Shown here: positions 21,300 to 49,573 of the stretch, one piece after another
Layout of the letters: every line of letters starts with the position of its first letter
How positions within the stretch are numbered: the stretch's first letter is position 1
Assembly: GCF_005144415.1 (NCBI RefSeq)
Contig: NZ_SWJE01000002.1
Span: 323,723 to 387,722, forward strand
Length of the DNA stretch: 64,000 nucleotides
Source: Trinickia terrae
GTDB lineage: Bacteria; Pseudomonadota; Gammaproteobacteria; Burkholderiales; Burkholderiaceae
Reading direction: 5' to 3'
Translations under genes and position numbers: made by a program
Notes under the pieces: model-generated
The model's database searches: none
What the model saw: the letters and a program-made list of their open reading frames with translations, nothing else
What the model was told of the DNA's origin: nothing

Positions 21300-21637
21300 A
21301 GGGAAACTTGCGATGCCGTCCGAAGCGGCACTCTTGTCAATGATGATCGCCCAATCAGGCGGTATTCTTGCGTGTTCGATGAACGGCAATTCTACCGAAA
21401 TCGAACAGCGCATAGGCTCCGGCTCGCCAATCGCCGTCATGATGGCGGCATCACTTCCCAAATTTCCGCATCGAGGCCACGGCCATCTTTGCGGTGCGGG
21501 CCTCGAGGTCTTGGCCGCCAGTCGTCCGGTTCATGTAACATTGCCGGCACGACGGGCTTGCGGCCAAGAAGAGAAAGGCGCACTCCATATCATATGAAGA
21601 ATGGCGACCGTCGGCATTCTCCTCCAGGCATTTGGAT
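21300..21637. other. Divergent spacer upstream of gtrA
   Basis: No gene is supported. The half nearest gtrA (about 21525-21637) is recognisably similar to 29075-29191, with shared blocks such as GTCCGxTTCATGTA and AAGGCG. The spacer therefore probably travelled together with the downstream gtrA when it was duplicated, and may hold its promoter. Confidence 0.6.
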
Positions 21638-22060
21638 ATGACACGTTTTTTTTCGATCGCACTTTTCCGGGAGATTATTACCTTCGGAATCGTCGGCGTA
21701 ATCGGCTTTGTTGTCGACACCACCGTTCTATATCTGTTGAAAGCGCATTTTGGCCTGTTCTATGGGCGAGCCACATCGTTCGCCGCGGCGGCATTCACGA
21801 CCTGGCTGATAAACCGGAAGTGGACTTTCAAGGACAAGCGCTCGTCGCTCGACGCCAAATATGAGTTTGCCGCCTATTTCGCGCTCATGATAATTGGCGG
21901 CGCAGTGAATTATACGGTGTACGCCCTTATGGTTTCGAAATATGCCGTCGCGGCGGAAGCCCCGATTATCGGTGTTGCGGCCGGCAGCATCGCCGGCATG
22001 TTTGTCAACCTCATGACATCGCGCACGCTTTTGTTCAAGAACTTGCGCCCATCGGTTTAG
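21638..22060 (+). CDS. GtrA family membrane protein
   Basis: The 140-residue protein has four predicted helices and the GtrA pattern: REIITFGIVGVIGFVVDTTV in helix 1, FAAAAFTTWLINRKWTFKD between helices 2 and 3, then GMFVNLMTSRTLLFK at the end. GtrA proteins are thought to flip polyprenyl-phosphate-linked sugars to the periplasm. In mycobacteria a GtrA-like protein (Rv3789) lies beside dprE1/dprE2, and here the same kind of genes follow on the same strand. That context suggests a role in decaprenyl/undecaprenyl-phosphoryl-arabinose handling. ATG 21638 is used; a TTG lies two codons earlier. Confidence 0.88.
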   Translation: MTRFFSIALFREIITFGIVGVIGFVVDTTVLYLLKAHFGLFYGRATSFAAAAFTTWLINRKWTFKDKRSSLDAKYEFAAYFALMIIGGAVNYTVYALMVSKYAVAAEAPIIGVAAGSIAGMFVNLMTSRTLLFKNLRPSV

Positions 22061-22191
22061 GCTGCCGCATAGCGCCGCTGCCACACGCCGATCACATCAT
22101 CGCCGCTTGGATTCAGTGCCACATCGGTCGGCGGCCCCGCCAAGCCGCTTGCCTGGATAGAAACCGCAAGAAACGTCGGCTATATACAGGT

Positions 22192-22221
22192 TTGTACAAA
22201 GAACGAGGAAAATAGTAAACT
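22192..22221 (+). promoter_or_regulatory. Candidate sigma-70 promoter before the HAD-UbiA gene
   Basis: TTGTAC (22192-22197), an 18-bp spacer and TAAACT (22216-22221) lie about 100 bp before the ATG at 22324. The surrounding AT content is higher than the neighbourhood. Support is by pattern only. Confidence 0.4.
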
Positions 22222-22323
22222 ACCTCCTCTCAAAATTGCCCGGCGACGGGCTCACCGGGACTCGCTCTTCTGCAAACACGTCCCGGGTACCGAAACTACT
22301 ATTCGCCCTTCCGGGCTGGTTGA

Positions 22324-23748
22324 ATGCTCAGCAGACCACTCGTTGTCGATCTCGATGGCACTTTGATCCGTTCGGACGTTTTGATCGAGTCGGGGTTTGC
22401 CTTTCTCAAGTCCAAGCCCCATCGGTTCTACAAGCCTCTGCTTTGGCTCTTGCGCGGTGGCAAACCGGCATTGAAAGCCGGCCTCGCCGACACGACGAAC
22501 CTCGACGTCTCCGTTCTGCCTTACGACCCCGTGGTCCTCGAATGGCTGACGGCGGAGCGGAAAGCGGGACGCCACCTGGTGCTGGCCACTGCCAGCCACG
22601 AGCGTTATGCGCAGGCGATCGCCTCCCATCTGGATCTCTTCGACAGGACGTTCGCAACGGATGCAGGCACCAATCTGTCTTCCAGCAACAAGCGCGATCG
22701 GCTCGTTGCAGAATATGGAGAAAAGGGCTTCGATTACGCGGGCAATTCGCACGACGACATCGCCGTGTGGCGCTCCGCCAATCGCGCCTACGTCGTCAAT
22801 CCGCATAACGGCGTCGAACGGGCCGCGCAGAAGATCGGCAATGTCGAGCGTGTGATCGAATCACGACCGGCGACGCTGAAAACCTGGAGCAAGTCGCTGC
22901 GACTGCACCAGTGGCTGAAGAACCTGCTGATCTTCTTGCCGCTGTTGGCGGGACACATGCTGAGCTCGCCCGAACATGTGCTCGCAGGGTTACTGGCGTT
23001 CCTGGCTTTCGGACTCTGTGCGTCGAGCGTGTATCTGCTCAATGATCTTCTCGATCTCGAGGACGATCGTCACCACCCGGTAAAACGCAAACGCCCGTTT
23101 GCGTCCGGTGCATTGCCGCTCAGTTTGGGGATCGCCCTATTTCCGATCCTGCTGACAGTCGCGTTTTCCATCGCATGGGTGCTCCTGCCGTGGCGGTTCG
23201 GTGCGGTACTCGCCGGCTACTATGTTCTGACGCTTGCGTATTCGATGCACCTCAAGCGCCGGGTCATGGTCGACGTCGTCGTTCTGGCGTCGCTCTATAC
23301 GACACGCATCATCGCAGGCGCAGCTGCCGTTGGCGTGCAATTGACGTTCTGGCTGCTCGCATTCTCGATGTTCATCTTCCTGAGCCTCGCACTGGTCAAG
23401 CGCTATGCCGAATTGCACGCGATGAAGGAGCGGGGCCTCGTCAAGAGTCGCGGACGCGGCTACGTCGCCAGCGACCTGCCGCTGATCTCGTCACTCGGCA
23501 CCGCTTCGGGTTATCTGGCCGTGCTGGTTCTCGCGCTATACATTCAGGACCCGAAGACAGCGATCTTGTATCGCCATCCGCGCTTCATCTGGCTTGCATG
23601 CCCGCTGCTGCTTTACTGGATCAGCCGCACCTGGATAATTGCGCATCGCGGCTTGATGCACGACGACCCTATTGTCTTTGCCGCACGCGACAAAATCAGT
23701 CTTGCAGTTGTGGCACTGTGTGCTCTTGTCTTTTGGGTAGCCATCTAG
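22324..23748 (+). CDS. HAD phosphatase-UbiA prenyltransferase fusion (DPPR synthase-like)
   Basis: The 474-residue protein fuses two enzymes. Residues 1-180 form a HAD phosphatase: VVDLDGTLIRSD is motif I and AGNSHDDIAVWR motif IV. From about 190 it is a UbiA-type integral membrane prenyltransferase with VYLLNDLLDLEDDRHHPVKR as the first Asp-rich site and RRVMVDVVVLASLYTTRIIA as the second. The closest known role is Rv3806c, which joins phosphoribosyl diphosphate to polyprenyl phosphate. The HAD part could remove the 5-phosphate, giving the next intermediate. It starts the unit continued by the DprE1-like gene 3 bp later. Substrate is inferred from context. Confidence 0.85.
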   Translation: MLSRPLVVDLDGTLIRSDVLIESGFAFLKSKPHRFYKPLLWLLRGGKPALKAGLADTTNLDVSVLPYDPVVLEWLTAERKAGRHLVLATASHERYAQAIASHLDLFDRTFATDAGTNLSSSNKRDRLVAEYGEKGFDYAGNSHDDIAVWRSANRAYVVNPHNGVERAAQKIGNVERVIESRPATLKTWSKSLRLHQWLKNLLIFLPLLAGHMLSSPEHVLAGLLAFLAFGLCASSVYLLNDLLDLEDDRHHPVKRKRPFASGALPLSLGIALFPILLTVAFSIAWVLLPWRFGAVLAGYYVLTLAYSMHLKRRVMVDVVVLASLYTTRIIAGAAAVGVQLTFWLLAFSMFIFLSLALVKRYAELHAMKERGLVKSRGRGYVASDLPLISSLGTASGYLAVLVLALYIQDPKTAILYRHPRFIWLACPLLLYWISRTWIIAHRGLMHDDPIVFAARDKISLAVVALCALVFWVAI

Positions 23749-23751
23749 GCT

Positions 23752-25068
23752 ATGAGTACCGTGCTGTCATGGGGACGCTATCCGTATGCCCCGCAGAAGA
23801 CGCATGCCGTTGCCTGGCGTGACGCCACACATGCAACATGGCGCGAAGCAATGCGCGAAAAGGGCACCACGCTCGCGTTCGGCAACGGACGAAGCTATGG
23901 CGACAGTTGCCTTGCCGCATCCGGCCAGGTTATCCACATTCGACCGTTGGACCGCCTGATTGCGGCCAACTGGGAAAGTGGTGTACTTCGCGCCGAAGCC
24001 GGCGCGACACTCGAGCAAGTGCTTGAAGTCGCCATACCCCGCGGCTGGATGCTGCCCGTCACGCCCGGAACCAAATACGTCACGCTGGGCGGCGCAGTCG
24101 CGAACGATGTCCACGGAAAGAATCATCATGTACGGGGCACGTTCGGAAGACACGTGCGTCGCCTCGGCCTCGAACGTAGCGACGGCGCGTCTTTCGAGTG
24201 CGCGCCCGATTCCGAGCCCGAACTGTTTGCCGCAACGATTGGCGGCCTTGGACTCACGGGCCTCATCACCTGGGTTGAAATTCAGCTGATGCCGATCAGC
24301 TCCAGCCTGATCGACGTGACAAGCATCCGCTTTTCGAACCTCGACGAATTTTTTGCACTCTCCGAGCGACTTGACACGCTCCACGAATACAGCGTCGCAT
24401 GGGTGGATTGTCAAAGCAGAGGTGCCGCGCTTGGACGCGGCATCTTCATGGTCGGCGACCATGCCGGCGATGGACCACTGGAAGTAGACCAGCGCAAGAA
24501 ACGTACGGTCCCCTTCACGCCTCCCGTCCCGTTGTTCAATCGTGTCACGCTGCGCGCGTTCAATGAGCTGTATTACCAGCGTCATCGCCTCGCCGAAATG
24601 CGCTCGCGAGTCAGCTACGACGCCTATTTCTATCCGCTCGACAGCCTGCTCGAATGGAATCGCATCTATGGCCGCGCGGGCTTTCAGCAGTATCAGTGTG
24701 TCGTGCCAACCGGGACGGCGCGAGACGCGACACGTTCGATTCTCGATGCCATTGCAGCGAGCGGCACCGGCTCGTTTCTCGCAGTGCTCAAACGCTGCGG
24801 CGACATCTCGTCACCGGGCCTGCTGTCATTCCCAATCGAAGGCACCTCGCTCGCGCTCGACTTTCCGCAACGTGATGCGGTGAATGCCCGCCTTTTCGCA
24901 AAGATCGATTCGATCGTGCGCGAGGCGGATGGCCGCCTCTATCCGGCCAAGGACGCTCATATGTCGGGCGCGGATTTTCGCGCCGCTTATCCCAACTGGC
25001 AGCAACTCGAAGCGCTGCGCGATCCCGCCATGATGTCCCGCTTCTGGGAACGGACCACTCGAACATGA
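23752..25068 (+). CDS. dprE1: DprE1-like FAD-dependent oxidase
   Basis: The 438-residue flavoprotein has the VAO/PCMH FAD-binding pattern LAFGNGRSYGDSCLA near residue 43. It also has PVTPGTKYVTLGGAVANDVH then GKNHHVRGTFG near 105-130, which is diagnostic of DprE1 decaprenylphosphoryl-ribose oxidase. DprE1 oxidises C2 of polyprenylphosphoryl-ribose so that DprE2 can reduce it to arabinose. At the position of the mycobacterial Cys387 (motif NVCVDFP) this protein has Ala368 (SLALDFP). Its stop overlaps the dprE2-like start by four bases. D-arabinose is inferred from the pair with DprE2 and UbiA. Confidence 0.87.
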   Translation: MSTVLSWGRYPYAPQKTHAVAWRDATHATWREAMREKGTTLAFGNGRSYGDSCLAASGQVIHIRPLDRLIAANWESGVLRAEAGATLEQVLEVAIPRGWMLPVTPGTKYVTLGGAVANDVHGKNHHVRGTFGRHVRRLGLERSDGASFECAPDSEPELFAATIGGLGLTGLITWVEIQLMPISSSLIDVTSIRFSNLDEFFALSERLDTLHEYSVAWVDCQSRGAALGRGIFMVGDHAGDGPLEVDQRKKRTVPFTPPVPLFNRVTLRAFNELYYQRHRLAEMRSRVSYDAYFYPLDSLLEWNRIYGRAGFQQYQCVVPTGTARDATRSILDAIAASGTGSFLAVLKRCGDISSPGLLSFPIEGTSLALDFPQRDAVNARLFAKIDSIVREADGRLYPAKDAHMSGADFRAAYPNWQQLEALRDPAMMSRFWERTTRT

Positions 25069-25805
25069 AAAACATTCTTATCGTCGGCGCCACGTCCGCC
25101 ATTGCTATGGCCTGTGCGCGGCAATGGGCAAAGGAAGGCGCCCGGTTCTTTCTGGTTGCCCGCAATGGGGAACGATTGGAGCAAGTTGCGGCCGACTTGA
25201 AGGCTCGCGGCGCCGATCTCGCCACCTGCTGCCAGCTCGACGTCAATAGCCTTGATCGGCACTCGGCGATGCTCGAGCGATGCGCGTCCGAACTCGGCAC
25301 CCTCGATGTCGTACTGGTCGCCCCGGGCACCTTGCCCGACCAAAGCGAATGCCAGTCAAATCCCGACGTCGCGATCCGAGAGTTCAATACGAATGTAACG
25401 TCCGTGATCGCCCTGCTCACGCCGATAGCCAACATGCTCGAGGCGCAGAAGCGCGGCACGCTCGCGGTCATCTCGTCCGTAGCGGCGGATCGCGGCCGGC
25501 CATCCAATTATCTTTACGGCAGTGCGAAAGCCGCGCTTTCAGCATTCTGCGAAGGGATGAACGCCCGCCTCTTCAAGGCAGGCGTTCACGTACTGACGAT
25601 CAAGCCAGGTTTCGTGGCAACGCCGATGACTGCCGGCCTACCTTTGCCCGGACCGCTTGTCTCGACGCCGGAAAAAGTCGCAAGCGACATCTTGCGCGCC
25701 ATCGAAAAGCGAAAGGACGTTATCTACACGCCCTGGTTCTGGTCACTGATCATGCTGATCATCCGGTCCGTGCCAAAGCCTGTGTTCAAACGAATGTCGC
25801 TCTAA
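25065..25805 (+). CDS. dprE2: DprE2-like short-chain dehydrogenase/reductase
   Basis: The 246-residue SDR begins MKNILIVGATSAIAMACARQ, a Gly-x-x-x-Ala-Ile-Ala NAD(P) motif rather than the common GxxxGIG, as in DprE2. VISSVAADRGRPSNYLYGSA then KAALSAF gives the Ser and Tyr-xxx-Lys catalytic groups, and IKPGFVATPMT is the usual C-terminal loop. The C-terminus ends with a hydrophobic stretch (FWSLIMLIIRSV) that may hold it at the membrane. It should reduce the keto intermediate made by the DprE1-like partner, with which it is coupled through ATGA. It ends the plus-strand unit. Confidence 0.87.
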   Translation: MKNILIVGATSAIAMACARQWAKEGARFFLVARNGERLEQVAADLKARGADLATCCQLDVNSLDRHSAMLERCASELGTLDVVLVAPGTLPDQSECQSNPDVAIREFNTNVTSVIALLTPIANMLEAQKRGTLAVISSVAADRGRPSNYLYGSAKAALSAFCEGMNARLFKAGVHVLTIKPGFVATPMTAGLPLPGPLVSTPEKVASDILRAIEKRKDVIYTPWFWSLIMLIIRSVPKPVFKRMSL

Positions 25806-25973
25806 GACACGTGCGGCGAGATCGGCGCCGCTCAGCGCGCTGATTCGCCCCCGTTCAATCCGTCCCCCTGTGCCCACCCACGAGATCTTCTCGCTATACG
25901 CACGGCACATCGCGCGGATCCAGCCGACCACATAGGCAGATCCCATGCAGACGGCTCTCAGTCTCACTCGTTG

Positions 25974-27923
25974 TTACATCTGACCCGCGTCCTCGAACGC
26001 GGGCTCATAGAGCGTGATAGGTTCCCCGCTTTCGTCGCGCACGATGAGATGCTGAACACCCGGCCCGTCGCCGAGTGCAATGTCACATGGCCGGACCCCG
26101 TCCGGAAAACGCGGATCCGCGATTTTTGCAACATGGCAGCGGCCAACAAGCGCCCCGCCATCGCTTTCGACGATGATGTCCTGATCTTGCGGCGTGATCT
26201 TGATCCCGAACAGGAAGCGACCAGCGCGAGGCGAAGCGGGAACGGAAACAGTCTTGGCAGCCACATAGAGATCGCCCGACTTCGAATCCCGTCCAATCCC
26301 CTGCACGTCCTTGATCGGCACGCTATGCACGACTCTTGCCTGCTCCGGGTCCTTGACGAACACCCGGAACGCCGGCGCGCCGACAAGGTCGATCGTGTAA
26401 AGCGATCCGGCGAGCCGCAGCTTCAGGGCTTTCTGGACGCTTGCCGGAAACAGACCATGCAGCATGAAGACATTCGCGTCATACATTTTGATCAGGTACA
26501 TCTCCGCTTTGTATTGCGGAGGAGCGCCTGCGATCCCGAGTTGCTCGAAGAACTGGCGGGCCTCGGGCAAATCGGCCTTCACAGCACGACTGGCCACCCA
26601 GATCGACTTGGTGTTAAGTCCCGAATAGTCCGCGACATATCCGTTGAACATATACGCCGGATATCCATGCCCGGTCCAGAGCACTGGATGATCTTTCGGC
26701 GCAACGGCATTCGCCAGAACTCCAGACTCTCGACGCTCGGACTCGTACACGATCTGCCAATACCTTGAGTTGATCGGTGCATCGTGATTCATCGGCAGGC
26801 GATACATCAGGATGCCGGCTGCAAGGCAGATCGAAACCGCGGAAAAAGCGAACCGCAGCAGGTTTCGCGGAATACTGAAAGCATCGAAAATGCTAAGCCC
26901 CGCCGCCAGAAGCATCAGTAATTCCGGAAGGGGGTAATACCAGGGCATTTTTTCGCCCGGGTTGTACACAAAATAAAGAAAGAGCGTGCCAATCGCGGCA
27001 GCGGCCATCACAAGCGACGGCAAAAATAGCTTGCGCCGCAAGAACGCAATGACCGGCGTTGCCAGCATCGCGACTCCCATGAGCGCGACACTGATTCGCT
27101 GCTCGCGACTTGCAACCATCGGCTCGAAGAATGGAAACCACGACGTACGCGGTGCCTTCTGGCGGAAATAAAACTTCGACAGGAAGCTTTCGGGCAACGG
27201 GGATCCGAAAACCGCCGTACTAAATGCGATCCACGCAAGAAGCGGGACAATGAAAAAGAAAAACAGCAACCTTATCTGGCTTTTGACTTGGCCTTCGAGA
27301 AAGGCACGAAGCAGCTGCAAGAAAAGCAATCCAGCGACGAGCGACAAGGTGTCGAGCTTCGATACGATCGCCAAGACACCGCAAATGTAAAACGGCACCG
27401 ACTTCTTTTCGAAGAAATACAGGAAGCAGGCGAAGACGAGCCACAAATTCACCGACACTTCAAGGCCGAGATACAGCGTCCCCGGCAAATATGACGAGCT
27501 AAAATAAACTACAAGAACGCCGATGATGGAAAGAACGACAGATTGCGACGCGTGGTAAGCGATGCGGAGCAAGCAGTAAAACATGCCGATCGCCCCGAAG
27601 AGCGATATGATCATGATCGAAGGTTGAGGGTCCAGCCCGATCCAACACAAGATTCCCGCAGCAAGCCCATAGATGAAGCCGCTCACGCCGTATACGGGAC
27701 CGTCTCCGACATTATATGAAAAAAAATGCCCCGCCTGAAAATTTCTCAAATAGCGCATCACGATCGCGCTATCATCGATCGTCGGGATGGTAAATGGATT
27801 GACCAGAGAAAGCAGGTAAAGCGAAAGAAAGACGGAAACAACCAGAAAAACAACATTCCTATTATTTTTCAAGCACCCCGTATATCCCTCAACAGAATTA
27901 CGGACACCAAGAAGTATGGCCAT
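25974..27923 (-). CDS. GT-C membrane glycosyltransferase, possible arabinofuranosyltransferase (AftB-like)
   Basis: The 649-residue protein has about 11 helices in its first two thirds and a soluble, probably periplasmic, C-terminal domain. TIDDSAIVMRYLRNFQAG in the first large loop is the Asp-Asp metal/lipid-phosphate site of GT-C enzymes. The following SYNVGDGPVYGVSGFIYG fits the AftB/TfpW-type group that uses polyprenyl-phosphoryl arabinofuranose. It converges on dprE2 with 168 bp between. Translation is taken from ATG 27923; the frame is open to 28010. Base composition is AT-rich compared with neighbours, a sign of transfer. Sugar and acceptor remain inferred. Confidence 0.75.
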   Translation of the reverse strand: MAILLGVRNSVEGYTGCLKNNRNVVFLVVSVFLSLYLLSLVNPFTIPTIDDSAIVMRYLRNFQAGHFFSYNVGDGPVYGVSGFIYGLAAGILCWIGLDPQPSIMIISLFGAIGMFYCLLRIAYHASQSVVLSIIGVLVVYFSSSYLPGTLYLGLEVSVNLWLVFACFLYFFEKKSVPFYICGVLAIVSKLDTLSLVAGLLFLQLLRAFLEGQVKSQIRLLFFFFIVPLLAWIAFSTAVFGSPLPESFLSKFYFRQKAPRTSWFPFFEPMVASREQRISVALMGVAMLATPVIAFLRRKLFLPSLVMAAAAIGTLFLYFVYNPGEKMPWYYPLPELLMLLAAGLSIFDAFSIPRNLLRFAFSAVSICLAAGILMYRLPMNHDAPINSRYWQIVYESERRESGVLANAVAPKDHPVLWTGHGYPAYMFNGYVADYSGLNTKSIWVASRAVKADLPEARQFFEQLGIAGAPPQYKAEMYLIKMYDANVFMLHGLFPASVQKALKLRLAGSLYTIDLVGAPAFRVFVKDPEQARVVHSVPIKDVQGIGRDSKSGDLYVAAKTVSVPASPRAGRFLFGIKITPQDQDIIVESDGGALVGRCHVAKIADPRFPDGVRPCDIALGDGPGVQHLIVRDESGEPITLYEPAFEDAGQM

Positions 27924-28282
27924 ATAAAATCTAGCGAATGATGAATACGTTAGGTAATACAGAACTTGTCGAACCCGTAGGAAGCAGCGAGGCGGGCCAC
28001 CCTCTTTCACCCCAGACGCCCTTGGGACGTCGGCACACTAGCCGCATCGATGCTGGTCTGCCGCCATTCTATCCGGCCAAGTCCCGCGACCCGCCGAGCA
28101 TTCCTGACGTAATCTTTCCTTCACGTCTACCGCCTGCAGGTCACGTCGACGCATCGCGCACTTGCCAAAGCCCGGTTACTAGGCTGGGCCGCCCCACAGA
28201 ATACCTGGGTGCAACCCGCTTATAGGGGCGGGCTAACGCTGCGCGGCCTGCCTTTCGCTCCAACCCCGAACCCGTAAGAGTC

Positions 28283-28735
28283 TCATTGCTCTGACTTGGC
28301 GCCCCCAAACACGAATTTACGGTCGAGCATATATTTCGAAACATACCCGATCGCCAAGCCAATAACAGCGCCCAAAAATCGCGCCTCTTTTGTGTGAAAA
28401 ATCTGATCAAAGCCGAATTCAAAAGACCAGAAGATCGCAGTAGTAACAAGGCCCATTGCCGCATAGGCAATGAACGTTTGCACATCGTGAGCGGCACTTC
28501 TCGGCTTAAAGGAGAAAATATATTTTTTATCCAGCACATATTTTGCAGCCAGACCGGCAATAGTTCCTACCGCGACCGATGCAAAAATAGAAAAGGCGCC
28601 GGAATATAGGCGAAGCGATATGTCTTGCGCGGCAATATTGACCACCGTTGCTATCGCCGCGAGAGCCGCATAGGTGATCGCGAGCTTTGACACCCCGTTT
28701 AGCTGCGGATTCTTCCGTTGCGTGAGAATTGGCAC
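28283..28735 (-). CDS. GtrA family membrane protein
   Basis: The 150-residue protein has four predicted helices and two GtrA repeats: VGTIAGLAAKYVLDKKYIFS near residue 55 and VIGLAIGYVSKYMLDRKFVF near the C-terminus. It differs strongly from the GtrA at 21638, so it is not a recent duplicate. It lies upstream of the GT-C gene on the same strand, 360 bp away, and could provide lipid-linked sugar flipping for it or for the GtrB-type enzyme at 35.2 kb. The region is AT-rich compared with the host average. Confidence 0.87.
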   Translation of the reverse strand: MPILTQRKNPQLNGVSKLAITYAALAAIATVVNIAAQDISLRLYSGAFSIFASVAVGTIAGLAAKYVLDKKYIFSFKPRSAAHDVQTFIAYAAMGLVTTAIFWSFEFGFDQIFHTKEARFLGAVIGLAIGYVSKYMLDRKFVFGGAKSEQ

Positions 28736-29191: not shown

Positions 29192-29440
29192 ATGACTCTT
29201 TTTCTCGACGGCTTTTTTCTCGGAAATCATCGCACCCGGAGCAATCGGTACAATCAGCTTCGTCGTCAACAGAATCGTTCTTTATCTGCTGAATGCGCAT
29301 TTCAACCGGTCCGGTGGACGAGCCGGTTCCTTCGGCGCCTCGAGATTCGCGATTCAGCTGATAAATTGCGCATAAATACTTGAAAATAAGCGCTCATCGC
29401 TCGATGTCGAATGCGAGACAGGCATATGAGCCAGCATCAG
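29192..29440 (+). pseudogene. Decayed gtrA copy
   Basis: An ATG at 29192 is followed by sequence that, after a one-base frameshift directly behind the start, reads FFSTAFFSEIIAPGAIGTIS then FVVNRIVLYLLNAHF. This matches FFSIALFREIITFGIVGVIG then FVVDTTVLYLLKAHF of the gtrA gene at 21638. Nucleotide similarity runs on past the TAA at 29373 (GCTGATAAA, AAGCGCTCxTCGCTCGA) to about 29440. Frameshift, stop and loss of the second half make it non-functional. Confidence 0.85.
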
Positions 29441-29512: not shown

Positions 29513-31411
29513 ATGAAGAAATACACCGATATTGCCATCAGGCTTATTGGCCTCATCCGGCGCGATGGCGTATATCCACTGCTGAAGAAAAGCGCGGGCA
29601 TCTTCAGACGGGAAGGGTTGGCCGGACTGAGATGGCGCGCTGGGAATCTCCTGCCCCCCAGCTACGGCTATTCCGAGTGGATAGAGCAATACGACCGCCT
29701 AGACGAGGAAACGATCAACCAGCTGAGGGCCGATATCGCGACCATGGCTGCGTTGCCGCGCATCGCCGTGGTCATGCCGACCTACAATGCCGATCCGATA
29801 TGGCTGGCCGAAGCCATCGACTCCGTCCGGAATCAAATCTATCCGCACTGGGAGCTCTGCATTGCGGACGACGCCTCCACGAGCAAGGAGATTCGCCCGC
29901 TACTCGAGCGATACGCGCAAGAAGACGCGCGTATCCGCGTCGTTTTCCGTAACGAGAATGGCCATATCTCGGCGGCATCGAACAGCGCACTAGCGCTGGC
30001 GACGTCTGACTGGGTTGCGCTCCTCGATCACGACGACGTCCTTGCGCAGCATGCGCTCTATTTCGTGGCGAAAGAAATCATTCGCCGCCCCGATGCCCGC
30101 CTGTTCTATTCCGACGAAGACAAGATCGATTCGAAAGGAAAGCGCCAAGCACCCTATTTCAAATGCGAGATGAACATCGATTTGTTCTATTCGCAAAACA
30201 TGATCTCCCATCTCGGCGTCTACCAGAAGCGCCTGCTCGATGAAATCGGCGGGTTCCGCGTCGGTTTCGAAGGGTCGCAGGATTATGACCTCGCCCTGCG
30301 CTGCCTGGAGCGTATCGGAACGGAAGCGATCGTCCACATCCCCCGTGTTCTCTATCACTGGCGGGTGCATGCAGCCAGCACCTCGGCGTCGGGGGAAGCC
30401 AAGCCCTATGCGTTGCTGGCCGGCGAACGGGCGCTGAACGAGCATTTTGCGCGGCAGGGAATCGACGGCAGCGCGGAAGCCGTGCCACGCGGATATCGCG
30501 CCCGCTACCGCCTTCCCGAACAGCGGCCGCTCGTCAGCCTGATCATCCCTACGCGCAATGGCGTCAAACTGCTAAGGCAGTGTATCGACAGCATTTTGAA
30601 AAAGACGGCTTATTCGCCGTATGAAATCATCGTCATCGATAATGGGTCTGACGAAAAGGCTACGCTCGATTATCTGCGCAGTCTAAGCAACACTGAAAAC
30701 ATCAGGGTGATACGTGACGACCGCCCGTTCAATTACTCGGCGCTCAACAATATGGCGATTTCGAGTGCGAACGGAGAAATCGTCGGCCTGATCAACAACG
30801 ACATCGAGGTAATTACCGAAACGTGGCTCGACGAAATGGTGTCGTTGGCCATCCAGCCGGGCGTGGGCGCGGTCGGGGCGAAACTGCTATACCCGGATGA
30901 AAGAATCCAGCACGCCGGAGTCGTCACCGGCCTCGGCGGCGTGGCAAACCACGCACACAAGTTCCTCCCCCGGAACAGCTACGGCTATTTTTGCCGCAGC
31001 GCCATCATCAGCTCTTTCTCGGCCGTGACCGCCGCTTGCCTGATCGTGCGCAAGGCGATCTACCAGCAAGTGGGCGGATTGAACGAAATCGACTTGGCAG
31101 TCGCATTCAACGATGTCGACTTCTGCCTTCGCGTCAGAGATGCCGGTTATCGCAACGTATGGACGCCATACGCGGAACTGTTCCATCACGAGTCTGCAAC
31201 ACGCGGCAGCGAAGACAATCCGGAAAAAGTGGCGCGCTTCAATCGCGAGGTCTCCTACATGCAGTCGCACTGGGGAGACTCCCTGAACAATGATCCCGCC
31301 TACAGTCCGAATCTGACCCTGGACCATGAAGGCTTCAAATTGGCATGGCCCCCTCGGGTAGAGCCTCTATTGGGCCACGCCGCGCCACACGAGAATAAGG
31401 AAGCGGCATGA
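29513..31411 (+). CDS. Two-domain glycosyltransferase family 2
   Basis: The 632-residue protein has two GT-A domains. The first (about 80-290) shows VVMPTYNADPIWLAEAIDSV, ALLDHDD and FEGSQDYDLALRCLER. The second (about 335-600) shows SLIIPTRNGVKLLRQCIDSI, LINNDIEVIT and VAFNDVDFCLRVRDAGYRNV. Such tandem enzymes usually add two sugars or extend a polymer. The ATG at 29513 lacks a clear ribosome site. Its TGA overlaps the ATG of the next epimerase gene (ATGA at 31408). Linkage and donors cannot be predicted. Confidence 0.9.
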   Translation: MKKYTDIAIRLIGLIRRDGVYPLLKKSAGIFRREGLAGLRWRAGNLLPPSYGYSEWIEQYDRLDEETINQLRADIATMAALPRIAVVMPTYNADPIWLAEAIDSVRNQIYPHWELCIADDASTSKEIRPLLERYAQEDARIRVVFRNENGHISAASNSALALATSDWVALLDHDDVLAQHALYFVAKEIIRRPDARLFYSDEDKIDSKGKRQAPYFKCEMNIDLFYSQNMISHLGVYQKRLLDEIGGFRVGFEGSQDYDLALRCLERIGTEAIVHIPRVLYHWRVHAASTSASGEAKPYALLAGERALNEHFARQGIDGSAEAVPRGYRARYRLPEQRPLVSLIIPTRNGVKLLRQCIDSILKKTAYSPYEIIVIDNGSDEKATLDYLRSLSNTENIRVIRDDRPFNYSALNNMAISSANGEIVGLINNDIEVITETWLDEMVSLAIQPGVGAVGAKLLYPDERIQHAGVVTGLGGVANHAHKFLPRNSYGYFCRSAIISSFSAVTAACLIVRKAIYQQVGGLNEIDLAVAFNDVDFCLRVRDAGYRNVWTPYAELFHHESATRGSEDNPEKVARFNREVSYMQSHWGDSLNNDPAYSPNLTLDHEGFKLAWPPRVEPLLGHAAPHENKEAA

Positions 31412-32536: not shown

Positions 32537-35203
32537 TTGTCGACGAATATTTGGCGTATCCAGAGAACGGATGCTACACCGCTGCTGCTGATTTTCCTGT
32601 TGCCCGTCATCGCGGCGCTGCCCGCACTGATTGGACTCTACGATGCGAACCCCATGCTGTATGTCGGCGCGCTAGCGCAGCGTTTTACGCATGGCGCTAC
32701 CGGCATCCCATACATCGACCCGAATAACGGCTTCACCACGCAGGCTCTCGGCTATCGCGCCGCGCTGAACTGGCTTAACGGAACCGTGCCCTGGTGGAAC
32801 TATTTCTCGGGAGTCGGTTTGCCGCTCGCTGCTGAATATCAGCCGGCCGCATTCTTTCCTCCGACATTGATGTTGCTGTTGCCCAATGGCATGCTGCTGC
32901 AGCACATCCTGTTGCAAATCCTGGCGGGCTGGGGCACCTACGGCCTGTTGCGGCAATTGGGGCTGGGCCGACTGGCTGCTGTGACAGGCGGCATACTGTT
33001 CGCTTTCAATGGCGCTCTGGCTTGGTTCGATCATGCCTCGGCGCTGCCCGTCCCTTTCCTGCCGTGGATGCTGTGGGGTGTCGAGCGCGCGTTCGCCAAG
33101 GCTGTGCTAGGCGCGCGCGGCGGATGGCGATTGTTCGCCGTAGCGCTGTGGATGGGCCTCGTCGCAGGCTTTCCAGAAACCGCGTATCTCAACGGCCTGC
33201 TTGCCCTGGCTTGGTCCCTGCTGCGTTTGTGGCAGGCCGGCGGTCACAGGCTAGCGTTTCTCTCGCGTCTGACCCTCGGGGGCGTCGTCGGTCTCGCCTT
33301 GTCCGCGCCGCAAATCCTCGCCTTTTTCGAGTTCTTGCCTCACGCGTGGCTTGGCGCGCATGACGGCGCATTCGCCCATGCTGCGCTGAATCCGGCCGCC
33401 CTATTGCCCAGTCTGTTCTTTCCGTATTTTTATGGCCCGATTTTCGCCTATTCGAGAGAATGGGATCCGCTGGGGCCTATTTGGGGGTCGATAGGAGGCT
33501 ATATCAGCCTGATCGTTGTCATCGCCGGGCTGTATGGCGCCATGTTGCGACGTACAGCACTCACCTGGCTGCTCCTGATCTGGCTGCTCACCGTGCTTGC
33601 CAAGTCGTTCGGCATACCGCAGGTAACCGCGTTGTGGAACCTGATTCCGGGCGTAGCGCAAGCCGCCTTCTTCCGGTATGCCGTGCCCACGTGGGAGCTC
33701 GCCTTCATCATTCTGGCGGCCCAGGCCATCGATAGCCTGCGCGGGCAGGATCACGAGCAACCGCCGTATCGACGTCACATCGCGGTCCTTTCCGGGCTGC
33801 TGGTGCTCGCCGGCGTGTTCTATGCGGTGTCGCTCCGGCACCACCTCTACCCCGTTGCCCCGCTGCGCCATTGGGCGCTGGCCGCCATCTTGTGGGTCAC
33901 TCTCATGGTGAGCGCGTTCAACGTGGTTCTGTCGCGCTGCCGGCCGACCCGGGCGGCCACGGCGATCGCGGCGATCCTGGTTTTCGACAGCGCACTCATG
34001 TTCTTCATTCCTACATTGAGCAACCCCCGCTCAGGTGATGTGGACATGAAGGCGATAAGTTTCCTGCAGGAAAACCTCGGACTGCAGCGCTTCTATTCGC
34101 TGGGCCCGGTGCAACCGAACTACGGGGCCTACTTCGGCATCGCGGCGATCAACCATAACTACCTGCCTGTCAACAAGCGATGGGTCGATTGGGTCCCTGC
34201 GCATCTCGACGCCTATGCCGATCCGATCTCATTCACCGGCAACTATCGAGCAGCCGGATCGACCGTACCGACGCCGAGTCAGGAGCTGATCCGGAATCTC
34301 TCTAACTACGAATGGATCGGCGTGAAATATGTCGTCGCACCGACCGGTGTCAATCCGTTCCTCTCGGCCCTCACGAGCAAGACGGACGCGACATCGGTTT
34401 CCCCGCTGCAGATGTCGCCGGGCAACAGCGCGGCCGGGACGTTGCCCGCAGGCCTGACCGACAAGGCCGTCGTGATCGATCGGGTCGGAGTTTCCATCGG
34501 CAATTACAACAACACGTCAGACGGCATCCTGACAGCGGAAGTCTGCGTCGACTCTGCGTGCGCGAGCGGACAGCGCGATTTGAAGGAGTCCATCGACAAT
34601 GCAACGTTCGTGATCCCTCTGAACCGCGATCTGCGGATAGACCCCGTCTCGATCGTCAGCTATCGTTTTACGCGTAACGGCGGCAGCAAGCCGCTCGCAC
34701 TGTGGAAGGCCGCCACGCGCGAGCCAGCCCAGGAGCAGCGACTCGAGGGGCCGACGGGCCCACAGAACGGCTACGGATTACAGATTCGCCTGCAAATACG
34801 GGACGACAAAGCGCCGGCGGCGAAACAAGTGTACGCGGACCGGATCATGACCGTGTACGAACTCAACCAGCCGAGTCCGTATTTCGAGGATCTCCAGCGA
34901 TCGTGCCGCGTGACAGCACACGATCGGGAGCACGTGACGACAGAGTGCTCCGCCCCATCCACGTTGTTGCGGCGAGAGTTGTTCTTCCCCGGATGGGCGG
35001 CAAAGGTCAATGGTTCGCTCACTCCGATTACGGAACATAAAGACCTTTTCCAGGCCATCGCGCTGCCTGAAGGCAAAAGCACCATCGTCTTCCGCTACGA
35101 GCCGCCACATATGATTTGGGCGTGGATTGCCATGTTCGTCGCTTTTGGCGTGTTGATACTATCCACTATGAAAAAGATTCCGCATGAAAGGAAACGTCAA
35201 TGA
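32537..35203 (+). CDS. YfhO-like GT-C membrane protein
   Basis: The 888-residue protein has about 12 helices up to residue 480, a long soluble region and one C-terminal helix (MIWAWIAMFVAFGVLILSTM). This is the architecture of YfhO/BcpA-like GT-C proteins, which transfer lipid-phosphate-linked sugars outside the membrane in three-component (GtrA-GtrB-GT-C) systems. The start is a TTG at 32537 with GGGGA 7 bp upstream. The stop overlaps the GtrB-like gene (ATGA at 35200), tying it to that enzyme. Loop 1 has YIDPNNGFTTQALGY rather than a clear DDxxR motif. The acceptor is unknown. Confidence 0.82.
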   Translation: MSTNIWRIQRTDATPLLLIFLLPVIAALPALIGLYDANPMLYVGALAQRFTHGATGIPYIDPNNGFTTQALGYRAALNWLNGTVPWWNYFSGVGLPLAAEYQPAAFFPPTLMLLLPNGMLLQHILLQILAGWGTYGLLRQLGLGRLAAVTGGILFAFNGALAWFDHASALPVPFLPWMLWGVERAFAKAVLGARGGWRLFAVALWMGLVAGFPETAYLNGLLALAWSLLRLWQAGGHRLAFLSRLTLGGVVGLALSAPQILAFFEFLPHAWLGAHDGAFAHAALNPAALLPSLFFPYFYGPIFAYSREWDPLGPIWGSIGGYISLIVVIAGLYGAMLRRTALTWLLLIWLLTVLAKSFGIPQVTALWNLIPGVAQAAFFRYAVPTWELAFIILAAQAIDSLRGQDHEQPPYRRHIAVLSGLLVLAGVFYAVSLRHHLYPVAPLRHWALAAILWVTLMVSAFNVVLSRCRPTRAATAIAAILVFDSALMFFIPTLSNPRSGDVDMKAISFLQENLGLQRFYSLGPVQPNYGAYFGIAAINHNYLPVNKRWVDWVPAHLDAYADPISFTGNYRAAGSTVPTPSQELIRNLSNYEWIGVKYVVAPTGVNPFLSALTSKTDATSVSPLQMSPGNSAAGTLPAGLTDKAVVIDRVGVSIGNYNNTSDGILTAEVCVDSACASGQRDLKESIDNATFVIPLNRDLRIDPVSIVSYRFTRNGGSKPLALWKAATREPAQEQRLEGPTGPQNGYGLQIRLQIRDDKAPAAKQVYADRIMTVYELNQPSPYFEDLQRSCRVTAHDREHVTTECSAPSTLLRRELFFPGWAAKVNGSLTPITEHKDLFQAIALPEGKSTIVFRYEPPHMIWAWIAMFVAFGVLILSTMKKIPHERKRQ

Positions 35204-36153
35204 AGCCGTCTAAGGTCGCAGTGCTTATCCCTTGCTACAACGAGGAAGTCGCCATCGGCAAGGTGGTCCGTGACTTCCGGCAAGCGCTCCCCGATGCGAC
35301 GATCTATGTCTACGACAACAACTCGCGCGATCGGACCGCGAGCGTTGCCGCACAGGCCGGCGCCGTGGTACGGCACGAGTCCCAACAGGGCAAGGGCCAT
35401 GTGGTGCGCAGAATGTTCCGGGACATCGACGCCGACTATTACATCATGGTCGACGGCGACGATACCTACGAGGCCGGACACGCGCCCGACATGCTGCGCA
35501 CCGCCATGTCCGGTCCTTTCGATCTGGTCAATTACATACGGAAAGAAACCGAGGACGCAGCCTACCGAGGCGGCCACCGTTTCGGCAACCTCATGCTGAC
35601 CGGGGTCGTACGCAAGATCTTCGGCAACCGGGTCAAGGACATGCTCTCGGGCTACAAGGTCTTTTCGCGCCGCTTCGTCAAGTCGTTTCCCGCATTGTCG
35701 TCCGGCTTCGACATCGAGACCGAGCTGACCGTCCACGCGCTCGAATTGTCAATGCCGATTTCGCATGTCGAAGGCCCGTATCGCGGCCGCCCCGAGGGAT
35801 CGGAAAGCAAGCTGCACACGTACCGCGACGGCTACCGGATCCTGAAGCTGATCATGAAGCTGATCCGGCATGAACGGCCGATGTTCTTCTTCGGCTGCCT
35901 GAGCATCCTGCTGACACTGATCGCGCTGGTGCTGGTGGCCCCAGTCGTGTTGCACTACCTGGAAACGGGATTCGTGCCTCGCTTGCCGACAGCGATCCTG
36001 TCCATGGGGCTGATCTTGCTGGCGTCGCTAAGCCTGACGACCGGGACGATCCTGGACACCGTCAGCCGCGGGCGGAGAGAGGTGCGGATGTTAGCTTATC
36101 TGCAGTATCAGCCGCATGAGGTGTCGGAGATGGCTGAGAAGGCAGAGCATTGA
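35200..36153 (+). CDS. GtrB-type polyprenyl-phosphate glycosyltransferase
   Basis: The 317-residue protein has a GT2 domain (KVAVLIPCYNEEVAIGKVVR, then MVDGDD as the DxD and MLSGYKVFSRRFVKSFPALS) followed by two C-terminal helices (about 225-290). This is the layout of GtrB/DPM-like enzymes that load a sugar from a nucleotide donor onto undecaprenyl phosphate at the inner face. Coupled to the YfhO-like gene, it should make the lipid-phosphate donor used by that GT-C enzyme. A GtrA flippase is available at 28.3 or 21.6 kb but not in the same operon. Confidence 0.9.
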   Translation: MKPSKVAVLIPCYNEEVAIGKVVRDFRQALPDATIYVYDNNSRDRTASVAAQAGAVVRHESQQGKGHVVRRMFRDIDADYYIMVDGDDTYEAGHAPDMLRTAMSGPFDLVNYIRKETEDAAYRGGHRFGNLMLTGVVRKIFGNRVKDMLSGYKVFSRRFVKSFPALSSGFDIETELTVHALELSMPISHVEGPYRGRPEGSESKLHTYRDGYRILKLIMKLIRHERPMFFFGCLSILLTLIALVLVAPVVLHYLETGFVPRLPTAILSMGLILLASLSLTTGTILDTVSRGRREVRMLAYLQYQPHEVSEMAEKAEH

Positions 36154-37264: not shown

Positions 37265-38254
37265 TTACGCCAGAGTGCTCTCGTCGAGCGTAATCCCATT
37301 CGCCTGTGCGCAACCGAAGCCCTCATATCCCATGTTATTGCCGTTATAGAACATGTAGGTTTTGTCTTGAACGGAAATCAGTGCGGGATAGCACAGGGTC
37401 TGAGAATCCCAACCCTCGTCCGAGAGAGAGATGCCTAATTCGTTATCGTGACGTGCCCACTGCACTCCGTCGACCGATCGCGCAAGTCCCGGAAAATAGG
37501 AACCTGAGATCGTGCCCTTCGTGTAGTACATGTAGTACTCACCGTCGATACGGTAAACACGCGGACGGCCGATCCGATATTCGTCGCCTCGCACATCCAC
37601 GCAAAGTTGCCCGCGCCGCGGGATGTCGAGAAGATCGTCGGCCTCGACGTAGTGGACGTTGTACCGTGGAAACGGACGGCCATTGATGATCTCCCAACCG
37701 TCCCCGCACGCGTACCAGAGTCTCCAGCGATTGTTCTCGAATCGCGCGGAGTGAATGGCTCCGATTGTTGATTGTCCCTTGGCTCGATCGAGGACAGGCG
37801 ATTCCGAGATGCGCGTGAACGAATGCCCACCGTCGATAGAGAGCGCCACACCGCTGAATGCGAGGAACTTGGCCTTGGCGACGAGTTGAAATCCGACATA
37901 AAACATATGGATGCCGCCAGGCCCCTCGACGACATCGCCGAGAATCACGCCGTTGTCGTCGAAACATCCATCGCGTCCGATATCGAGCACCGGAGCGTCC
38001 GAGACCCTCAGGATTTTCGTAGGATCTTGGGCCGCCACGTCGACATAGCCGATGCGGCTCACACCCGCTTCGTCGCGAAACCCCGCGTACACGCGGATCG
38101 TATTTTCATCGAGACGGAACGGTGTCGGCGTCAAAGCCGTATTTTTCATCCACGGCTTTCCCTGCTTTGCCGTGTGAAACACGGCACCCAATTTTTCCCA
38201 TTGAATTGTCATGTGCTTGGCAATGGTTGTCGATAGATCACGAGGGTGGTTCAT
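37265..38254 (-). CDS. Five-bladed beta-propeller glycoside-hydrolase-like protein
   Basis: The 329-residue product has repeated short blade-like segments: ENTIRVYAGFRDEAGVSRIG, GIHMFYVGFQL, NNRWRLWYACGDGWE, DGEYYMYYTKGTIS and DKTYMFYNGNNMGYEGFG. This spacing is that of the GH32/43/62/130 five-bladed propeller fold. There is no signal peptide, so it should be cytoplasmic, which is unusual for a hydrolase and suggests a transfer, phosphorylase or editing role. ATG 38254 and ATG 38212 (MTIQWEKLG) are both possible starts. It sits between the acyltransferase and FemAB-like genes. The substrate is not known. Confidence 0.72.
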   Translation of the reverse strand: MNHPRDLSTTIAKHMTIQWEKLGAVFHTAKQGKPWMKNTALTPTPFRLDENTIRVYAGFRDEAGVSRIGYVDVAAQDPTKILRVSDAPVLDIGRDGCFDDNGVILGDVVEGPGGIHMFYVGFQLVAKAKFLAFSGVALSIDGGHSFTRISESPVLDRAKGQSTIGAIHSARFENNRWRLWYACGDGWEIINGRPFPRYNVHYVEADDLLDIPRRGQLCVDVRGDEYRIGRPRVYRIDGEYYMYYTKGTISGSYFPGLARSVDGVQWARHDNELGISLSDEGWDSQTLCYPALISVQDKTYMFYNGNNMGYEGFGCAQANGITLDESTLA

Positions 38255-47361: not shown

Positions 47362-48714
47362 TCACACCGCAACGCTCGCGCCTATCTCCCTAATGTCGAA
47401 AGCGACATCCTGCCAAACCATGGCGGGAAAGATATTCTCGGCGCGCGATCCGAATGTACTTTGGAACACTCTCGCATTTTCCAGCACATCGATAAATTGA
47501 TGGACTTTGTTCTGCTGAACGATGCTCTCGACCCCGACGCTGACGGTATATCCACCTTGAGTCAGCGTGTTGACCCCGGAAATATCGATGCAATAGGTCT
47601 TGCCCGCCTCGAACGACGGCATATCGACATGAGGGAAGTTGGAGTTGATGGCCCCCACAACCTGATTGCCCTTGAAATCGCGCAGTGAATACCCGACCGC
47701 CGGCCGCTCGATATCCGCGTTCGCCCTGACGATGACTCTTACCGTATACGGGTCATGTAATTCCAGCAGTTCGGTCGCCTCTCCATGCGCGTTCATGACA
47801 ATGACGTCCACAATGGTAGCCCGCCCGTCGCCGTAGCGAGTATGGCCGTCGAGAAAGGAGACCGCTTCGTGCGGGACGGCTTCCGGAACCTCGGGCGTCG
47901 CATGATTGGACGCATCCTCTGCCGAATGCCCCGCGGTGATCCGATTGATATCGAGGTTCATCTCGCTGACATAGGCCCCGACTACCTCCCTGGGATCGCC
48001 GCAGGCCACAGCGCGACCCTGCTTGAGCCAGAGCACCTTGCTGCAAATATTGCGAACGCTGCTCATATCGTGGCTGACGAAAAGCACCGTCGTGCCGCCG
48101 TCCATGAGCTCGCGCAAACGGACCATGCACTTGGCCTGGAACGCAAGGTCGCCGACAGCCAGCGCCTCGTCGACAATCAGAATGCTCGGATCCATGCTCG
48201 CGGCGATCGCAAAAGCGACACGCACGAACATCCCCGACGAATACATCTTGACCGGCTGATCGATGAACATGCCTACGTCGGCAAACGCGACGATATCGTC
48301 GTAACGCGCTTCGATTTCCTGCTTGCTGAGCCCAAGCAGGGTTCCGTTCATGAAGATATTCTCGCGCCCGGTGAATTCCGGGTTGAAACCGGCGCCCAAT
48401 TCCAGCAGTGCCGCCACGCGGCCGTTTACTTCGACATGCCCATGCGTCGGACTCAGCGTGCCGCAGATCATCTGCAGCAAGGTGGACTTACCGCTGCCGT
48501 TTCGGCCGATGATGCCGACCGTCTCGCCCTTCTTCACTTCGAAGGACACGTCGTCGAGCGCCCAGAAATCGCTGCAATAGTGTTTCGGCTTGGCGCCGGC
48601 CAGCTTGTAAAGCCGCGGTAGCACGAACTGCTTCAGCCGATCGCGAGGCGTTTCGTAGATCTGGTAGCGCTTGCCGAGCTGGTGAACCCGGATGGCGATA
48701 TCGTCACAGGACAT
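47362..48714 (-). CDS. wzt: O-antigen ABC exporter ATP-binding protein
   Basis: The 450-residue protein has a nucleotide-binding domain with Walker A GIIGRNGSGKST near residue 60, the Wzt-type signature MYSSGMFVRVAFAIAAS and Walker B ILIVDEALAVGD. A further 170 residues after about 270 form the C-terminal carbohydrate-binding domain, seen as VSFLDGHTRYGDGRATIVDV and YSLRDFKGNQVVGAINS. Such domains recognise the capped end of the O-chain before export. ATG 48714 has AAAGGGG upstream and overlaps the wzm end by 11 bp. With Wzm it moves finished polymer across the inner membrane. Confidence 0.93.
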   Translation of the reverse strand: MSCDDIAIRVHQLGKRYQIYETPRDRLKQFVLPRLYKLAGAKPKHYCSDFWALDDVSFEVKKGETVGIIGRNGSGKSTLLQMICGTLSPTHGHVEVNGRVAALLELGAGFNPEFTGRENIFMNGTLLGLSKQEIEARYDDIVAFADVGMFIDQPVKMYSSGMFVRVAFAIAASMDPSILIVDEALAVGDLAFQAKCMVRLRELMDGGTTVLFVSHDMSSVRNICSKVLWLKQGRAVACGDPREVVGAYVSEMNLDINRITAGHSAEDASNHATPEVPEAVPHEAVSFLDGHTRYGDGRATIVDVIVMNAHGEATELLELHDPYTVRVIVRANADIERPAVGYSLRDFKGNQVVGAINSNFPHVDMPSFEAGKTYCIDISGVNTLTQGGYTVSVGVESIVQQNKVHQFIDVLENARVFQSTFGSRAENIFPAMVWQDVAFDIREIGASVAV

Positions 48715-49564
48715 CGGCAAACCCCTTTCTAGTCTTCTGGAACCACGCGTAACCCGCCCATGCCACGCTGCAGGCAGCGAGCATATAAACGGAGAGTCCC
48801 AGCCAGTCGGGCGTGCGCCCCCAAATCAGGACGTCGCGAGTCTGCTCGATAATGAACGTCAAAGGGTTGGCCATGATAAACGGCCGGAACCGCGGCGGGA
48901 CCGCGGTCACGGGATAGAACACGGGCGAAAGAAACATCAGTACGGTCGTCAGCAGCCCAATGGTCTGCCCCACGTCGCGAAGGAAAACGCCAAGCGAAGC
49001 GAGAATCCACGCCAGCCCCAGCGTAACGATGACGAGCGGCAGCAGCACCAGCGGAAAGAACACCACCGTCCATGCGAGGCTGCCATTGAAGACGAAAACC
49101 GCGCACAACAGAACCGCCACGCTGACGCAACTGTGGAACAGCGCTGCACCCATTGCGGAAACCGGGAGCACTTCGATCGGAAAGACGACCTTCTTGACGA
49201 AATTGACGTTCGCGATCACTAGAGTAGGCGCTCGGTTGATCACTTCAGAAAACAAATTCAGCACGATCAAGCCGGCGAACAACAGCATGGCGAACCCGGT
49301 CTTGCTTTGTATCGCGCCGCCAGCGCCACCCCAGCGGGCCTTGAACACCTCGGAAAACACAAAGGTATAGACGGTCAGCATGAACAGCGGCTGAAAGAAG
49401 GACCATGCCAGTCCCATGGCGGAACCTTTATAGCGGCCGAGGACCTCGCGCCGCGTCATCTGCGCGATGATCTGGCGGTGGCGCCAAAGTCCGCAAAGCA
49501 AGGAAACCGGGCCGCAACGCGGTACGGCGTGAGGGTCGGACGCCCGTGTCATCGGCCCACTCAT
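48704..49564 (-). CDS. wzm: O-antigen ABC exporter permease
   Basis: The 286-residue membrane protein has six helices and the ABC-2 type features QMTRREVLGRYKGSAMGLAW in the N-terminal amphipathic helix and FLSPVFYPVTAVPPRFRPFI between helices 5 and 6. The family forms the channel for undecaprenyl-linked polymer export with Wzt. ATG 49564 follows a GGAG site; a GTG lies three codons earlier. It is the first gene of this minus-strand operon (wzm, wzt, aminotransferase, two glycosyltransferases). Confidence 0.93.
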   Translation of the reverse strand: MSGPMTRASDPHAVPRCGPVSLLCGLWRHRQIIAQMTRREVLGRYKGSAMGLAWSFFQPLFMLTVYTFVFSEVFKARWGGAGGAIQSKTGFAMLLFAGLIVLNLFSEVINRAPTLVIANVNFVKKVVFPIEVLPVSAMGAALFHSCVSVAVLLCAVFVFNGSLAWTVVFFPLVLLPLVIVTLGLAWILASLGVFLRDVGQTIGLLTTVLMFLSPVFYPVTAVPPRFRPFIMANPLTFIIEQTRDVLIWGRTPDWLGLSVYMLAACSVAWAGYAWFQKTRKGFADVL

Positions 49565-49573
49565 GCATAACAC

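Follow-up and report, generated by a model that had tools for sequence, protein, structure and literature searches.

What would a gene set for D-arabinofuranose (D-Araf), a rare sugar known chiefly from mycobacteria, whose D-Araf pathway serves as a drug target, be doing in the O-antigen locus of a betaproteobacterium? The question is raised by six genes within a 64,000-nucleotide stretch of the Trinickia terrae genome (contig NZ_SWJE01000002.1, positions 323,723 to 387,722), hereafter the window, in whose numbering coordinates are given. We have found that most members of the mycobacterial set, among them AftB, have homologues within 7 kb of this O-antigen cluster. In our judgement, the genes are likely to form an exchangeable D-Araf side-chain module of the O-antigen locus, with D-Araf added in the periplasm. 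This reading is built upon homology, catalytic residues, a conserved cassette, the association of the cassette with a GtrA-family protein (GtrA2) and a glycosyltransferase of the C fold class (GT-C), and the presence, absence and GT-C exchange seen between related O-antigen loci.

The six genes stand in the order described by the first-pass annotation of the window. GtrA1 (21632-22060, plus strand), a GtrA-family small membrane protein, adjoins the module and is followed on the same strand by a HAD-UbiA fusion (22324-23748), a DprE1-like flavin adenine dinucleotide (FAD) oxidase (23752-25068) and a DprE2-like short-chain dehydrogenase/reductase (SDR; 25065-25805). A GT-C-like membrane protein (25974-28010, minus strand; translation may in fact begin at an internal ATG, ~29 codons further in) and GtrA2 (28283-28735, minus strand) are encoded convergently to this cassette. 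Coordinates needed correction only at GtrA1, which starts at 21632, the annotated 21638 being an in-frame ATG two codons on. The HAD-UbiA and DprE1-like genes are 3 bp apart, and the annotated 4-bp overlap between the DprE1-like and DprE2-like genes was confirmed. The assignment to an O-antigen locus was borne out by Wzm and a Wzt with its C-terminal domain (47362-49573, minus strand; PF14524, PF00005, PF01061), which would export the O-antigen, the presumed acceptor, as an ATP-binding cassette (ABC) transporter, as well as by rmlBADC and WecA/WbpM-like genes. For DprE1 and for the flanking genes, the nearest named relatives belong to Paraburkholderia and Caballeronia, in agreement with a betaproteobacterial host. 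G+C content is ~0.65 in the flanks and 0.54-0.61 across 22-30 kb, and DprE1 is absent from both congeneric genomes searched, a pattern in keeping with an accessory segment of the O-antigen locus.

The three cassette enzymes were compared with curated models, solved structures and relatives, and 80 named loci were fetched by DprE1 protein. The fusion carries HAD (PF12710, above cut-off) at residues 7-147 and UbiA (PF01040) at residues 204-441, and matches NF006088 at 692.7 bits (cut-off 351). Among all solved structures, its UbiA part matches the decaprenylphosphoryl-5-phosphoribose (DPPR) synthase Rv3806c of M. tuberculosis alone (8j8j, E 1.6e-31). The nucleophilic D9 of the HAD domain is invariant in 89 sequences, and D9/D11, N240-D241-xx-D244, D248, R360 and E363 are kept in nearly all of 88 relatives; from N240 onward these are the residues by which UbiA-type phosphoribosyltransferases have been recognized (N-D-x-x-D...D and the loop IV R/E; PMC11127046). 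The HAD domain is thus a predicted phosphoribose phosphatase and the UbiA domain a predicted polyprenyl-phosphate phosphoribosyltransferase, the pathway's first two steps. The best structural match of the oxidase is M. tuberculosis DprE1 (E 4.2e-72), with 359 bits to NF053785 (equivalog cut-off 500). According to the alignment to solved DprE1, its Y49, H121, K123 and K400 correspond to Y60, H132, K134 and K418 of the mycobacterial enzyme. Cys387, the residue attacked by benzothiazinones in M. tuberculosis, is replaced by A368, and Ala occupies this site in 90 of 92 aligned relatives. The reductase matches DprE2 best (E 2.4e-33; next SDR 1e-16), scores 194 bits to NF053786 (cut-off 250) and 367 bits to NF005489 (cut-off 267), and has an S138-Y151-K155 triad that is invariant among relatives. 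Overall, the catalytic residues of HAD, UbiA, DprE1 and DprE2 are essentially invariant over ~90 relatives, and HAD-UbiA and DprE2 accompany DprE1 in 76 and 79 of the 80 loci, respectively. The earlier proposal of kinship with Rv3806c, DprE1 and DprE2 therefore stands, these being the nearest characterised proteins, and a lipid-phosphate D-Araf donor is the best-supported prediction for the product of the cassette.

From these genes we infer each reaction of the following pathway, along with the flipping, the O-antigen acceptor and the linkage. After phosphoribosyl transfer to the lipid, the fused HAD domain would take off the 5'-phosphate, and the DprE1-like and DprE2-like proteins would invert C2 through oxidation and reduction, yielding lipid-phosphate D-Araf. 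GtrA2 would carry this donor to the periplasmic side, where the AftB-like GT-C would move D-Araf onto an O-antigen chain made by cytoplasmic polymerisation and brought out by Wzm/Wzt.

Two GtrA proteins flank the cassette, and the first-pass annotation had placed GtrA1 at the head of the pathway and listed GtrA2 as a second GtrA. GtrA2 (178 bits to NF037976) is tied to the cassette: in 18 of 80 DprE1 loci a relative lies no more than ~0.7 kb from it, and a cassette gene lies within 1.5 kb in 24 of 29 GtrA2 loci. Among 298 other Burkholderiaceae genomes, DprE1 was found in 33 of the 35 that have GtrA2 and in 11 of the 263 that lack it (Fisher 5e-32, a value that overstates independence since the genomes are related). 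In locus L092, a GtrA2 relative (62%) overlaps a GT-C relative by 4 bp, and in one Paraburkholderia group and L106 the gene order is altered, with the GtrA2 relative inside the cassette. GtrA2 is thus the probable flippase for the D-Araf lipid donor. GtrA1 was rejected for this function; while GtrA2 tracks DprE1, GtrA1 relatives adjoin a relative of the DPMS/GtrB-like synthase gene (35200-36153) in 21 of 29 loci, and YfhO-like, DPMS-like and GtrA1 genes are consecutive in L120. GtrA1 is also present in a genome without the D-Araf module (G241, below). Because of these neighbours, GtrA1 most likely forms a separate hexose lipid-donor (GtrA/GtrB) set with the synthase and the YfhO-like GT-C (32537-35203), whose genes overlap by 4 bp. 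A decayed gtrA1-like remnant with a frameshift and stops (29196-29435, plus strand; 49-53% to GtrA1) was observed ahead of the gene at 29513. The module lies between this remnant and the intact GtrA1, two copies in direct orientation, where G241 carries a single intact GtrA1; this hints at the module's route of entry.

The GT-C that faces the cassette has no Pfam or NCBIfam match. Homologues are scarce, occurring in 2 of 299 family genomes and 4 of 398 phylum genomes (its own included), and the strong ones sit in cassette-bearing genomes (L046, L070/L110, L106 and L092). Further members, reached with iterated profiles, lie close to the cassette in L006, L021, L025, L026, L031 and L073. In the T. 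terrae genome, a single DprE1 and a single such GT-C were found, next to each other. Against solved structures, a profile of the close subfamily (A1) gave nothing credible (best 9s6t, E 0.61); a broader profile of eight members (A2) matched one solved protein, AftB (9dlf, E 6.4e-18). Two family members match the AftB model NF041481 at 3e-15 and 5e-14; its equivalog cut-off is 1050 bits, the best relative reaches 55 bits and the window GT-C gives no match. When the subfamily of the window GT-C (A3) was compared with the AftB stretch, it gave an E value of 8.7e-6 (probability 83), versus 0.14 and 0.09 for two other membrane GT-C candidates of the window used as controls. It also joins the L006/L021 subfamily at E 7.5e-14.

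Structure prediction gave a mean predicted local distance difference test (pLDDT) of 42.6 from the single sequence and 52.3 with eight homologues, with residues 80-270 mostly above 70 and the C-terminal part below 50. The predicted fold is that of a GT-C and comes nearest to AftB, which Foldseek ranked first and which gave Z 15.5 over 358 residues at 5.0 Å (ArnT 13.3). At that level of pLDDT, we do not claim the C-terminal extra part as a carbohydrate-binding domain. Of the AftB residues reported to matter (D62, E172, T91, T274 and R221; PMC12041299), alignments place D62 at D80 of a D79-D80 pair, E172 at E184, T91 at S110, T274 at S275 and R221, conservatively, at K218. Profile, fold and active-site residues together mark this GT-C as a distant homologue of AftB, rather than a proven AftB. 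AftB retains the beta configuration (PMC12041299), and PMC11127046 reports no further instance of Araf side chains in beta linkage, which makes the linkage an interesting point. It is a tentative suggestion, somewhat doubtful at present, that the GT-C works as AftB does, with retention, and puts beta-linked D-Araf side chains on the ABC-exported O-antigen, making mycobacterial-type terminal arabinosylation an exchangeable serotype module of Proteobacteria.

Comparison with related loci bears on the acceptor. Genome G241 carries an O-antigen locus of almost identical make-up (WbpM/WecA-like, GT2, SDR, YfhO-like and DPMS-like genes) without the D-Araf module or DprE1. Its identity to the window is 87% for Wzm, 85% for Wzt, 90% for RmlB, 87% for DPMS and 75% for GtrA1, and the alignment is broken at ~22.0-29.0 kb, which corresponds to the module. 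In G264, the module (77-82%), with its GtrA2, occupies the same place, and two other large membrane proteins replace the GT-C of the window. The donor part is constant and the GT-C exchangeable, much like serotype conversion. Such presence, absence and GT-C exchange between alike O-antigen loci favours the O-antigen as acceptor.

Several points weigh against an O-antigen module for D-Araf. The fusion, oxidase and reductase fall below the equivalog cut-offs of the respective NCBIfam models (DPPR synthase, DprE1 and DprE2), and by that criterion the three enzymes are not called orthologues. The window GT-C lacks a direct database match, and its apparent link to AftB runs largely via relatives. 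At the donor-phosphate site of AftB, R372, the region is unaligned to AftB and the window has W-Y where two relatives have R-Y, so this residue may not be conserved. GT-C members L107 and L108 are without a cassette gene within the 12-16 kb fetched. Lastly, the acceptor could be another glycan or a protein.

The same donor might be used to modify a protein, be it type IV pilin or a different one, in the manner of TfpW in Pseudomonas paraeruginosa, where related donor genes serve pilin arabinosylation (PMC12369383). We regard this as unlikely; the genome does encode a single PF00114 pilin, but on another contig (C45), and the sole DprE1 and sole such GT-C lie in the O-antigen locus, where module presence and the accompanying GT-C differ between otherwise alike loci. 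O-antigen loci gather unrelated glycan genes, and the donor genes could have come to lie in this hot spot by chance while D-Araf enters a capsule or exopolysaccharide. A D-arabinan polysaccharide is in fact found in Devosia (PMC8707391). A second polymer export system was not recognised among the window genes scanned, however, and relatives of Wzm/Wzt are found alongside the cassette in further groups (L020, L061, L066 and L070), leaving this explanation quite improbable. The earlier choice between O-antigen, pilin and another glycan is thus narrowed towards the O-antigen by the context in G241 and G264, short of proof. The sub-threshold scores of the oxidase and reductase and the Ala at the Cys387 site would also suit a pair that makes another pentofuranose or other lipid-linked sugar. 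However, the catalytic residues are kept, no characterised family with a better score was found for the oxidase, and DprE1/E2 homologues occur in Araf-containing systems, with a different epimerase for xylofuranose (PMC11127046); we consider a product other than D-Araf very improbable.

The general kind of system to which a D-Araf O-antigen module would belong is already known; what is new here is the combination of parts. A three-component pentofuranose pathway was described in 2024, in which a PRP-PPPRS fusion, a flippase and a GT-C act in periplasmic addition to the finished O-polysaccharide; the fusion was established there and DprE1/E2 homologues, which the window has, were proposed for Araf (PMC11127046). 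Citrobacter youngae O1/O2 (ORF15 PRP-PPPRS, MATE flippase and GT136) shares with the window a UbiA phosphoribosyltransferase that has a HAD phosphatase fused at its N-terminus, epimerisation of the lipid-linked sugar, a periplasmic GT-C and an O-antigen context (PMC11127046). The window differs in having DprE1/DprE2 instead of ORF13 and a GtrA-type flippase instead of MATE, no MATE-family flippase being found among the open reading frames of 21.6-29 kb. Its GT-C is AftB-related and does not have, after D79-D80, the D-x-x-E-Y spacing of ORF12 (GT136; active-site residues D31, E34, Y35, H106 and R349), a comparison based on the reported residues of ORF12.

With the mycobacterial pathway for decaprenylphosphoryl-D-arabinofuranose (Rv3806c, Rv3807c, DprE1, DprE2, Rv3789 and AftB), the window shares homologues of the phosphoribosyltransferase, both epimerase subunits and AftB, and likewise has a GtrA/SMR-type flippase candidate. 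In contrast to mycobacteria, the phosphatase is a HAD domain fused to UbiA, the lipid is presumably undecaprenyl, the acceptor is presumably the O-antigen, and the Cys387 site of DprE1 and the R221 site of AftB are Ala and Lys, respectively. P. paraeruginosa Pa5196/PA7 (PSPA7_6245-6251 plus TfpW) also has a Gram-negative D-Araf donor pathway (PMC12369383), although it is without the HAD fusion (PMC11127046), its GT-C lies at the pilin locus and its acceptor is pilin. The Gtr serotype-conversion sets (GtrA, GtrB and a serotype-specific Gtr) resemble the window in that donor and flippase genes stay constant and the GT-C can be exchanged, but the window donor would be made from phosphoribosyl pyrophosphate by UbiA, not by a DPMS-like GtrB. 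Since its flippase and GT-C families differ from those in PMC11127046, the window can be read as a variant that stands midway from the Citrobacter system to the pathway of mycobacteria. A literature search of partial coverage returned nothing relevant on D-Araf in Burkholderia O-antigens. If the reading is true, the locus would allow DprE1/DprE2, flipping by a GtrA-type protein and transfer by an AftB-like enzyme to be studied outside mycobacteria, and it would help to predict D-Araf in Burkholderiaceae O-antigens. The related loci that lack the module (G241) or bear exchanged GT-Cs (G264) offer a natural comparison.

Within Burkholderiaceae, a DprE1 match was found in 45 of 299 genomes (8 of 25 genera), and 0 of 299 pass the NF053785 cut-off. 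The cassette ranges over Paraburkholderia, Caballeronia, Burkholderia, Pseudomonas, Vibrio and Chlorobi, and over Chloroflexi, there without UbiA in the stretch fetched. L061, from a Chlorobiaceae metagenome-assembled genome, combines the cassette with a Wzm, a Wzt and a two-domain GT2 that are 71%, 63% and 63% identical to those of the window, which suggests cross-phylum transfer of O-antigen parts. In L005 (12071-13780) and its relatives, a different large membrane protein family directly follows DprE2; the family comprises 27 open reading frames in 23 cassette loci, has no Pfam match and is possibly another GT-C. Elsewhere in the O-antigen locus of the window, the gene at 37265-38254, which adjoins one for a FemAB-like protein, has a weak likeness to GH130 (beta-1,2-mannobiose phosphorylase).

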